This document shows positions 1,414 to 7,567 of a stretch of 26,354 nt of DNA, one piece after another; within the stretch, counting starts at the first letter, position 1, and each line of letters opens with the position of its first letter. The notes beneath the pieces are model-generated. The model made no database searches, was not told the DNA's origin, and saw nothing but the letters and a program-made list of their open reading frames with translations. The DNA comes from a virus: positions 1-26,354 of IMG/VR virus record IMGVR_UViG_3300042868_005968; one strand, written 5' to 3'. The position numbers were made by a program, and so were the translations under genes.

Positions 1414-1715
1414 GCACCCACCCTTTGAGATCGGCCAAAGGGTGGTACAAAGGGTGGGTGTCTTTAAGCCACTGGAATTGCGTCGTTATTTTGCCAATGC
1501 ACCCACCCTTCCACCTTTTTCGCGAAATTTGGGTTTCTGGCGGAGCATATAAAACACCCCCTTTTATCTATATTTATATATATTTTTTTTCCCTTAGAAA
1601 AAAAGAAGAAAAGGTGGAAGGGTGGGTGCATTGGCCAAAAACACCAGCTCGTAGGCGGGTTTGGACGGCACCCACCTTTTTTGCAACTAAATTCAAAGGG
1701 TGGAAGGGTGGGTGC
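1414..1715. repeat. Six copies of an AAGGGTGGGTGC-type motif in three facing pairs
   Basis: The 12-base motif AAGGGTGGGTGC, or a one-base variant, occurs six times with alternating orientation: minus at 1414-1425, plus at 1450-1461 (ends in T), minus at 1499-1510, plus at 1618-1629, minus at 1668-1678 (one C shorter) and plus at 1704-1715. This makes three successive inverted pairs with different spacings. Several copies carry a second half-motif, AAGGTGG or AAAGGGTGG, beside them. Each pair could form a hairpin or bind a dimeric protein. The function is unknown; iteron, operator, small-RNA and non-autonomous-element explanations are all open. Confidence 0.8.
1493..1635. repeat. 27-bp perfect inverted repeat flanking an AT-rich 89-bp loop
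   Basis: Bases 1493-1519 are the exact reverse complement of 1609-1635, 27 of 27. The arms run from GCCAATGCACCC to CCACCTTTT. The 89-base interior includes a very AT-rich part with a T8 run, followed by an A-rich patch (about 1590-1610). The structure resembles a small element with terminal inverted repeats, a large cruciform or a replication site. No target-site duplication is obvious around it. Confidence 0.9.
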
Positions 1716-3884: not shown

Positions 3885-3912
3885 GCCCATGCGCCCTAAC
3901 CAATCCAGCTGG

Positions 3913-3975
3913 CCACCTTGGCCACCTTGGCCACCTTGGCCACCTTGGCCACCTTGGCCACCTTGGCCACCTTGG
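3913..3975. repeat. Seven perfect tandem copies of a 9-bp unit CCACCTTGG
   Basis: CCACCTTGG is repeated exactly seven times (63 bp), flanked by TGG and CATGG. Each junction creates the palindrome TGGCCA and each unit contains CCTTGG, so the array is a ladder of symmetric sites every nine bases. In one frame it would read Trp-Pro-Pro repeats, but the surrounding frame lacks gene character. It suits an iteron array or a slippage-prone repeat. Confidence 0.95.
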
Positions 3976-4036
3976 CATGGGGATAACTATCACAGCGCCT
4001 ATTCGCGCCGCGCGTTAACGCGCCTATGCATCGCCA

Positions 4037-4638: not shown

Positions 4639-4829
4639 TTGCTTTGTTCCTTTATTGCGCGGACAATTTTCGCAGCCCTCTCTGACGTTATGATTTGATA
4701 GGTATGCCACTGACCTTCACTCCATAAAAAGTTTCCGCTTGTCTTGGCGTCATCCTCTAGCGCCTTGGCTGCGGCTTCGATGCCAGCGTCATAACCTGAC
4801 TGCCATTCGGATGCTGGGTCTTTGGTCAC
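4635..4829 (-). CDS. Small hypothetical protein
   Basis: The protein has about 64 residues starting MTKDPASEWQSGYDAGIEAAAKALEDDA. I chose GTG 4829, which overlaps the stop of the upstream DnaA-like gene by four bases (GTGA) and has GGGGTGG before it; GTG 4838 would add three residues. The sequence is helical with an acidic middle and ends AAKIVRAIKEQSK. The motif Y-D-A-G-I-E-A-A-A-K-A-L resembles a small phage family of unknown role that often occurs in replication clusters, but I do not recognise a named family. Confidence 0.6.
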   Translation of the reverse strand: MTKDPASEWQSGYDAGIEAAAKALEDDAKTSGNFLWSEGQWHTYQIITSERAAKIVRAIKEQSK

Positions 4830-5299
4830 ACCATCCACCCCGTGCAGTGGACGTTCTCGTTGGCGCCACGGCTCCAGATCATGGCGTCGATCAGCTTCTG
4901 CTCTGGCATCGGGCCGTGCGTCTTGCCAGTCGCAAAGATGGCGGCAGCGAGCGCCTTAGAGCCACGTTCGCAGTGCGCCTTGTAGTTCTTGGTTGTTAGA
5001 TCTCGCGGCGCGGCGTCGGCGACGACCTCGCGCGTTACGAAATACGCAGGCGTCGGGTTGTATTTGTGCGCCAACAGGCTGCCCACCGTGCTGCGGTCAC
5101 GCCCGACCACCCTGGCGATGGCCGCGTTCGTCAAGTCCTTATCACGCAGCAGACGGCACAACGCGACACGCGCTGCGACCGGCTTCTCCTGTTTGCTTGG
5201 CCCCAGTATTTCCATGATCGTGACGCCGTACTCGCCTGCGATGCGGACGATGCTCGGCATATGGTTCAGCGTTTCTTCAGTTAAACGAATCTCTGACAC
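4826..5299 (-). CDS. DnaA domain IV-like DNA-binding protein
   Basis: This 157-residue protein resembles the C-terminal DNA-binding domain of the initiator DnaA without its ATPase. Residues about 16-80 read IVRIAGEYGVTIMEILGPSK, then ARVALCRLLRDKDLTNAAIARVVGRDRSTVGSLL; GRDRSTV (66-72) corresponds to the DnaA signature GRDHTTV, the loop and helix that read the DnaA box. The remainder (about 85-157) is unrelated and unknown. Start is GTG 5299, supported by AAGGA nine bases upstream. It lies directly downstream of the primase-helicase gene, so I infer a role in phage origin recognition or control of host DnaA. A generic HTH regulator is the alternative. Confidence 0.72.
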   Translation of the reverse strand: MSEIRLTEETLNHMPSIVRIAGEYGVTIMEILGPSKQEKPVAARVALCRLLRDKDLTNAAIARVVGRDRSTVGSLLAHKYNPTPAYFVTREVVADAAPRDLTTKNYKAHCERGSKALAAAIFATGKTHGPMPEQKLIDAMIWSRGANENVHCTGWMV

Positions 5300-5326: not shown

Positions 5327-7567
5327 TCAGTCCTCAATAGCGAGTGGATCAGGCCAGTCAACCTGATATTGATGCCGCTTGGTAAATAGCTGCCGTGCCT
5401 CTTTCAGCGATGCAACCGCAGTTACTTTGTAGCGAGCGCCAGCCGCGCATTTGACCTTTCCGCCGTAGAACAACTCGTCGTAACGCGCGACCGACGTCCA
5501 GAAGCCATTGGCGTTCTTGACCTCCCAGTGGCGCTGGATCGAATTCTTGTAGCTCTCGTAGATCGTGGTCTTGTTGGCCTCGACCTCGCCGAATTGAACT
5601 GCCGCACCGCTCTTGCTGTCCCTGATCTCACCTTCCATCAGGCAGTCGAACAGCCAACGCTGGACGCAGTCACCGCCACGCATCTGCTGATCCTGCAACG
5701 CCTTCGTCTGCGGGGCAGTGCGGACGTTGACCGTCGCCAGATCGAACGTCTTCAGGTGGTGCAGGATGTGCTTCTTGCCGCCACGGTCGTACCAGCTTTG
5801 CAGGGCTGCGTAGAAGTCATAGTCCTGTTTGCGCCGATCCGAGATGTCGAACACGGCCCAGCGGCGTTCATCGGCTGTCGCTGGCACGACCCACTCTTCG
5901 TTGGACGTGAACAGGATGCGGGTGAAGTTCGGCGCCATGTAGCTGTCGACGCCCTTACGCTCAATCATGATGCGGGGGTTGGTGACGAGATCCTTCAGCG
6001 CGCCCTCTGCCGATTTGCTTCCGGCCCAGAACGCCTCTTCGGCTTGCAGCAGCAGGCAGTCTTCCAGATGGCGGTTGAAGTTGCCGACCAGTTGTTCCTG
6101 GCGACTGATGGTCTTGTGGTGCTGCGGGAACAGACCACCCAGCAGTTCGCCCAGCTTCGACTTGCCGGTGCCTTTGAGGCCGCGCAGCACTGTGGCCACG
6201 CCGATCTTGGTCATCGGCTCCTGCACCATCTGCGCGCACCAGCCCATGATCCACTTGTAATTCGCCTCGTCGCGGTCGGCGATGATGTCGAACATCCAGT
6301 CGGTGAATATAGACACGTCACCTTCTTCTGGCTCACACGACCAGCCGCGCCACAGGTTGTACGCGCCGATCTTCTGGCCCTCTGGCAAGAACACCAAGCC
6401 GCGCGCCGTGCGCCGTTCGGGGTGCGTCAGCCAGAGCTTCACGGGGTTGACCTGTTCGATCACGATGTCGCCGTTCTTCTTCTCGACCTCAATCGGGATG
6501 CACTGGTTGGCGAATTCCTTGGTCAGATCCTCGACGCCGAACAGTTCCAGCCCGTCCTGCATATCGTCTTCGCGGATGACGCGGGCGCTGCCCGACACCT
6601 GTACGAACACCAAGTCCTGCACAAGCTGGTCGACCAGCCCCTTCTTCTTCTCTTCACGCACGACCTTCTTGGCCTTGCCTTCGATGTAGGCAGCGGTCAC
6701 CGGCTGGGCGCTGGTGTTACGACCGAACGAGCGCCACCGCTTGGCGCACTCACCGTGGACATATTTGCCGCCCTGGGCGGACCACTCGTCCCACAGTCGC
6801 AGCCCGTCAGGCTCCCCGTCTGTTTCGTGGTGCAGCGCCATGCCGACCTTGACCCACTCATCGTGGCCACAGTCAGGGTCGAGGCTCTCCATCCACGTTT
6901 TAAGGTCGGCCACACTTTTGCCTAACTTTGGCCGCAATGTCAGAAGGTCGTCCATCTCAGAGTTAGCAAATGTGCTAACTCCCTTGCGCGACAGTTCCCA
7001 GTCGTCGGGGATGATGCTTTCGAAATAGGCAACGAACTCCTGGGCCTGCTCCTTCGTGAGCGTGGGCAGATCGTCGTGCGGTATGTCGATAAGAGATTTC
7101 TTCGGCCAGCCGTAGGGCTGCTGCGTGTCAGGGTGGACCGCATACGCCACGAACTGCTGCCCCTTGGCCAGCACCTCGACCGCGTTCTTGTTGCCTAAGA
7201 AGTCAACATATTCGTTCGACCGGATCTTGCCGAACGGCTCGTCGCAACGGAACACCATCAGCGCCTTCGGCTTCTTGCCGATCCGCAGTGGTGCCTTGCC
7301 GAGGTTGTTCTCGACCCACTTCACCAGCTTGTAGCTGATGTCCTTGTCGAGACAGTCGATGTCGATGGCCGGCGTGTTCTCTGTGAGGATGCCGACACCG
7401 CAGTTCGCCATGCGTGCATCGGCGAGCCACTGGTCGAGCTTCTCTGCGTCAGCGTGGCAGTTCTGCCAATCGCTGATGGCGGGTGCCTTGGCGCCGGCAC
7501 GAATCGGGAGGGGGGAATATCCCAACGAAACTAGTTGCGCGCCGTGAGATTTAAGGTATGAAGACAA
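5327..7567 (-). CDS. Primase-polymerase / SF3-type helicase fusion (VirE-like)
   Basis: The 746-residue protein combines the functions that unwind DNA and lay primers. Residues about 1-180 resemble a bifunctional primase-polymerase domain, with a DxD catalytic pair in PAIDIDCL (66-73) and surrounding GVGILT. Residues about 205-285 (DLKTWMESLDPDCGHDEW...) resemble a PriCT_2 domain. The C-terminal half is a D5/DUF5906-like helicase with Walker A GLKGTGKS (463-470), Walker B-like LLLQAEE (505-511), sensor FTSN (553-556) and a DERRW arginine finger region (566-570). The start is TTG at 7567, with GGAAAGGAA upstream; no nearby ATG exists. It follows the DUF3310 gene across a 54-base gap containing a plus-strand terminator. 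Confidence 0.93.
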   Translation of the reverse strand: MSSYLKSHGAQLVSLGYSPLPIRAGAKAPAISDWQNCHADAEKLDQWLADARMANCGVGILTENTPAIDIDCLDKDISYKLVKWVENNLGKAPLRIGKKPKALMVFRCDEPFGKIRSNEYVDFLGNKNAVEVLAKGQQFVAYAVHPDTQQPYGWPKKSLIDIPHDDLPTLTKEQAQEFVAYFESIIPDDWELSRKGVSTFANSEMDDLLTLRPKLGKSVADLKTWMESLDPDCGHDEWVKVGMALHHETDGEPDGLRLWDEWSAQGGKYVHGECAKRWRSFGRNTSAQPVTAAYIEGKAKKVVREEKKKGLVDQLVQDLVFVQVSGSARVIREDDMQDGLELFGVEDLTKEFANQCIPIEVEKKNGDIVIEQVNPVKLWLTHPERRTARGLVFLPEGQKIGAYNLWRGWSCEPEEGDVSIFTDWMFDIIADRDEANYKWIMGWCAQMVQEPMTKIGVATVLRGLKGTGKSKLGELLGGLFPQHHKTISRQEQLVGNFNRHLEDCLLLQAEEAFWAGSKSAEGALKDLVTNPRIMIERKGVDSYMAPNFTRILFTSNEEWVVPATADERRWAVFDISDRRKQDYDFYAALQSWYDRGGKKHILHHLKTFDLATVNVRTAPQTKALQDQQMRGGDCVQRWLFDCLMEGEIRDSKSGAAVQFGEVEANKTTIYESYKNSIQRHWEVKNANGFWTSVARYDELFYGGKVKCAAGARYKVTAVASLKEARQLFTKRHQYQVDWPDPLAIED

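Follow-up and report, generated by a model that had tools for sequence, protein, structure and literature searches.

The question raised by positions 1414-1715 of the virus record IMGVR_UViG_3300042868_005968 (26,354 bases, hereafter the window) is why one short motif, GGGTGGGTGC, should recur there six times in alternating orientation. A preliminary description made from the letters alone had offered four answers: a replication initiator array, operators of a dimeric repressor, a structured RNA or a remnant of a small mobile element. The evidence favours the first and disfavours the other three. The array is very probably the replication origin of a temperate podophage, laid out on the plan known from Staphylococcus aureus pathogenicity islands (SaPI) and phage-inducible chromosomal islands (PICI) and read by the C-terminal domain of a primase-polymerase fused to a helicase (PrimPol-helicase).

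With at most one mismatch, the motif AAGGGTGGGTGC occurs at 1414 (minus strand), 1450 (plus), 1499 (minus), 1618 (plus), 1668 (minus) and 1704 (plus), and nowhere else in the window. The six copies compare with 0.07 expected in shuffled sequences and are beyond chance, as the preliminary description had stated. Its layout of three facing pairs was a misreading: the six copies form one mirror-symmetric set whose axis is at 1564.5, the pairs 1414/1704, 1450/1668 and 1499/1618 lying on opposite strands and each within 0.5 bp, an arrangement that arose in 3 of 20,000 random-placement trials. The outer iterons occupy 1414-1425 (minus) and 1704-1715 (plus), the middle ones 1450-1461 (plus) and 1668-1679 (minus). 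The inner ones are contained in a perfect 27-bp inverted repeat, whose left arm (1493-1519) holds iteron 1499-1510 and half-site 1511-1518, both on the minus strand, and whose right arm (1609-1635) holds half-site 1610-1617 and iteron 1618-1629, both on the plus strand. This repeat had been correctly described as exact, and it is the longest in the window; the next unrelated one measures 13 bp. At the level of the half-site AAGGGTGG (at most one mismatch) the array comprises ten units, with offsets from the axis of -143, -123, -111, -58, -50, +49, +57, +111, +135 and +143. Besides the half-sites at 1511 and 1610, these include 1438-1445 (plus), in tandem with iteron 1450-1461, and 1696-1703 (plus), in tandem with the outer right iteron at an 8-bp step. 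The axis falls inside the window's lowest-GC 60-mer (1547-1606, 20% GC), an AT-rich centre that we propose as the unwinding element. In a dyad-axis scan the array reached 52 matched bases versus a maximum of 27 across 20 Markov-simulated windows. Since the open reading frames (ORFs) crossing the array run differently among relatives and its core has indels, the array is treated as non-coding.

Relatives in IMG/VR were collected through the terminase small subunit (TerS) and then sorted into motif groups A to D. In group A (the window and L004-L012; TerS 87-94%) the six copies and their spacings are kept wherever a contig spans the array; L004 and L006 share the same G-to-A change in three of the six copies and have an extra ORF between array and terS. 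Group B (L053-L056; TerS 68-69%) carries the motif AGGGTGTGTAAT, with 12 copies, all mirror-paired, in G009. Group C (L057; TerS 55%) has GGCCCAGATGGACCGG, with GGGCCAG as its motif in a looser arrangement, and group D (L014; TerS 53%) has GTGTCTTGGAG. The iterons are offset from the axis by ±57.5, ±111 and ±143 in group A, by ±60.5, ±109.5 and ±136.5 in group B and by about ±58, ±116 and ±134 in group D. These three groups thus agree on positions about 58, 111 and 137 bp from the axis and on the same strand alternation. Close relatives keep the positions and orientations of the array, and distant ones keep its geometry with unrelated motifs; of the conservation that the preliminary description had proposed to look for in related phages, that of spacing was found, and that of the motif within close relatives only. 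The persistence of mirror geometry and alternating orientation while the motif itself is replaced argues for an origin. A mobile-element remnant is disfavoured because position, geometry and flanks are constant in the relatives, with no scattering. The flanks include a block, GGNMTATRNNNNGWTCCGCGAAAAT (1783-1807, minus), with IMG/VR matches only in contigs of this phage group, and a G-run, GGGGGAGGGGGGAGGGGG (1834-1851, minus), which is conserved in motif groups A, B and D and at which several independent contigs begin. The arrays of groups B, C and D have a second recurrent element, GCTAAGNNATTGAWWT, repeated both within them and in their vicinity (L014 2393-2990, G010 37265, L057 about 196-290); it was looked for in the window and not found. 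At the DNA level, the window region had no match in the phage collection.

The replication genes of the window stand in the same order as in the Bordetella phage BPP-1 and the Burkholderia phage BcepC6B: PrimPol with PriCT_2 and DUF5906, then homologues of DUF2800, DUF2815, PolA, VRR-NUC and SNF2 proteins, the latter five named by reading translations. Both phages, and Acinetobacter phage 4316, contain an inverted repeat of a similar kind. In BPP-1 it is TTGCCTCGTTTGCCTCGTTTCT, inverted at 26607-26710, with the iteron GCCTCGTTT twice per side; in BcepC6B, TTGGGACGATAGGGACGATA, inverted across the record junction directly 3' of the primase gene, with two copies of the iteron GGGACGATA; in phage 4316, GAGTGACGTTAGTGACGTT, also directly 3' of the primase gene, with two copies of the iteron AACGTCACT. 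Among repeats with copies 25-350 bp apart, these dyads are the longest exact ones in the sequence examined of each phage (next-best 16, 13 and 12, respectively). They share with the window the replication gene set and an AT-rich core and lie between primase and terS, and consist of inverted pairs of tandem 9-bp iterons. They differ in having two tandem sites per side, with unrelated motifs, where the window has three spaced positions. No description of these origin-like dyads, nor of any BPP-1 replication origin, was found in the literature searched. That named phages sharing the replication genes carry such an element, with another motif each time, supports its role as an origin. Further support comes from Rhizobium phage RHph_X2_30, where copies of GGTCCAAGG at ±66.5, ±113.5, ±124.5 and ±143 make up a complete mirror array. 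The primase gene is 2.9 kb away, with the array on its 3' side, and terS is at a distance of about 19 kb; the array is therefore tied to the replication genes and separated from terS. No array was found in PfAn1 (about 15 of 39 kb examined), Vibrio K296 or ctXG6705, and BUCT555 has a short 13-bp inverted repeat only.

The closest functional parallel is the replication origin of SaPI and PICI elements, described for EcCICFT073 and SaPIbov1 and experimentally supported in EcCICFT073 (PMC6092414). Taken as a control, the EcCICFT073 locus displayed TGTCTACCC TGTCTACCT iterons with a period of 9, in inverted orientation on either side of an AT-rich core, the whole lying directly downstream of the primase gene. 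This common plan and a Rep sharing PF19263 with the window protein (5.1e-10 for EcCICFT073 Rep, 3.6e-24 for the window PrimPol) support the assignment. As in the window system, SaPI/PICI origins go along with a helicase of the DUF5906/D5 kind, and their iteron sequence varies between elements as it does among these phages. By analogy, the window element would work like a PICI/SaPI origin. Nonetheless, we do not class it as one, because it resides in a phage and not immediately 3' of the gene: SaPI/PICI origins follow the 3' end of the primase-helicase gene, as do the dyads of BcepC6B and Acinetobacter phage 4316, whereas the window array is 3.6 kb away. Moreover, PICIs are satellites without a full capsid and terminase set of their own, whereas the relatives of the window are full temperate phages with terminase, portal and further structural genes. 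In their arrays each side has three site positions, placed at constant distances from the axis and strictly mirror-symmetric; the helicase is fused to PrimPol, and the conserved G-run and flanking block lie alongside. The P4 alpha protein with ori/crr is likewise a primase-helicase fusion working on its own iterons. The BPP-1 primase matches the P4-family model TIGR01613, whereas the window protein stays below the cut-off (15.5 of 108.7 bits).

The proposed initiator is encoded at 5327-7567 (minus) and combines, according to domain matches, PrimPol (PF09250), PriCT_2 and a DUF5906 helicase. Its helicase core matches the primase in PDB entries 6k9c and 6k9e, presumably the protein of phage NrS-1. 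In the PrimPol-helicase, groups A and B are separated by 60 fixed differences in 743 columns, 19 of them within the last 62 residues, where about 5 would be expected; none of 20,000 permutations reached 19, and other non-overlapping stretches of equal length hold at most 12. Identity of the C-terminal segment is 96-100% within groups A and B and 68-70% between them. This concentration of differences points to the PrimPol-helicase as the candidate reader of the array, probably through residues 676-746 (5330-5542, minus), whose divergence tracks the motif group. A third type of C-terminus is found in five further PrimPol loci (L100-L104), on contigs that stop before any array. Published work on SaPI Rep and on Cch2 of the staphylococcal cassette chromosome (SCC), both of which bind iterons through the C-terminal domain, supports a C-terminal reader (PMC7581432). 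At the putative SCCmec origin, this domain of the D5-family helicase Cch2 binds iterons downstream of its own gene; unlike in the window, binding requires direct repeats and there is no mirror array (PMC7581432). In the mechanism that we propose, the C-terminal domain of the PrimPol-helicase would bind the three iteron positions on each side of the AT-rich centre. On the model of SaPI Rep and SCC Cch2, the two half-arrays would become assembly sites for helicase rings, which would melt the centre; from there the primase-polymerase fused to the helicase would begin DNA synthesis that proceeds outward bidirectionally.

Several observations weigh against a PrimPol-read origin. A gap of 3.6 kb separates the window array from the PrimPol gene, and terS is its direct neighbour. 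GC skew does not switch cleanly at the axis. The geometry of group C is looser, and in RHph_X2_30 the AT-rich stretches are located outside the inner iterons rather than at the axis. No such array was present in the region round the primase of Pseudomonas phage Lydia, whose primase is related. The correlation between C-terminus and motif amounts to a single A/B transition. An AlphaFold model of the C-terminus has an order of helices and strands compatible with a winged helix at low confidence (predicted local distance difference test score 68), and it gave no significant match in the PDB.

The position beside terS suggests instead a packaging site (pac or cos) recognised by TerS (phrog_309; 746-1348, minus), and this was the reading favoured at first, since the array always adjoined terS and seemed to travel with TerS in contig G002. 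In close relatives the array lies directly upstream of terS; two residues of the TerS recognition helix differ between motif groups; and G002, siphophage-like with a lambda-type terminase of its own, lacks the PrimPol but carries a partial array beside this TerS. However, 57 of the 61 residues of the TerS helix-turn-helix (HTH) are unchanged between motif groups, the two recognition-helix residues being among four changes in all. Across phages the element does not stay with terS, as the distance of about 19 kb in RHph_X2_30 indicates, and distant phages with a homologous TerS are without the array. G002 stops within the array and may be chimeric, since phages share the tail cassette beside it. 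RHph_X2_30, the comparison of TerS with PrimPol and the possibly chimeric nature of G002 led us to drop the packaging site, which we now regard as unlikely. The composition of G002 (L012; 41,164 bases) is unusual in itself, as the lambda-type terminase (phrog_57/phrog_15) is accompanied by the podophage TerS and a partial array by the tail-fibre genes; it may be a true mosaic or a chimeric assembly. Concerning TerS, a start at GTG 1330 (VSDPFDS) is preferred over TTG 1348 on the basis of a conserved GAGAGGA sequence resembling a ribosome-binding site. Profile scans for TerS across 84,980 host genomes found no relative.

Equally improbable is an origin bound by another protein, the DnaA-domain-IV-like product of 157 residues encoded directly downstream of PrimPol (4826-5299, minus). 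It resembles DnaA domain IV below the Pfam threshold (PF08299, 24.9 bits) and is conserved in G001, G009 and G010. A DnaA-like annotation is also present on a gene of phage RHph_TM26, whose primase is related. Yet its recognition helix differs between the window and G001 despite their shared motif, G001 being closer to group B, and no DnaA-like protein is annotated in BPP-1, BcepC6B or Acinetobacter phage 4316. With a recognition helix that does not track the motif, the protein was set aside as reader; it might be an accessory factor.

An operator array of a dimeric repressor or late-gene regulator would suit the location between divergent early and late genes, and HTH proteins do differ between motif groups. 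Such operators are nevertheless very doubtful, as the sites occur only here and nowhere near the Cro/repressor region around 8,200, no sigma-70-like promoter was found in the region, and neither mirror geometry round an AT-rich core nor primase linkage in other phages is expected of operators. A structured RNA is scarcely credible, since the fold z-scores of about -9 on both strands follow from the symmetry of inverted-repeat DNA, no Rfam family matched, and an RNA would need neither motif replacement at fixed DNA mirror distances nor tandem half-sites. Apart from the array, the window holds a 9-bp unit, CCACCTTGG, in a tandem array at 3908-3976, after the early-gene block.

For the proposed replication origin read by the PrimPol-helicase, the presence of the SaPI/PICI plan in temperate phages including BPP-1, BcepC6B and RHph_X2_30 suggests a possible common ancestry or mechanism for the replicons of satellites and phages. 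For the widely used phage BPP-1, it also supplies a candidate origin. The close relatives G001 and G009, whose iterons and helicase C-termini differ, offer a system to map how residues read bases and to ask why origins change specificity. We tentatively suggest that these arrays represent a type of phage origin in which the mirror geometry stays fixed and the complete set of iterons would be swapped along with the PrimPol-helicase domain that reads it. Close relatives would thereby acquire separate replication specificities, and the driving force may be rivalry with co-infecting phages or satellites over shared replication proteins. Such origins, if this is true, would be the phage counterpart of plasmid incompatibility groups.
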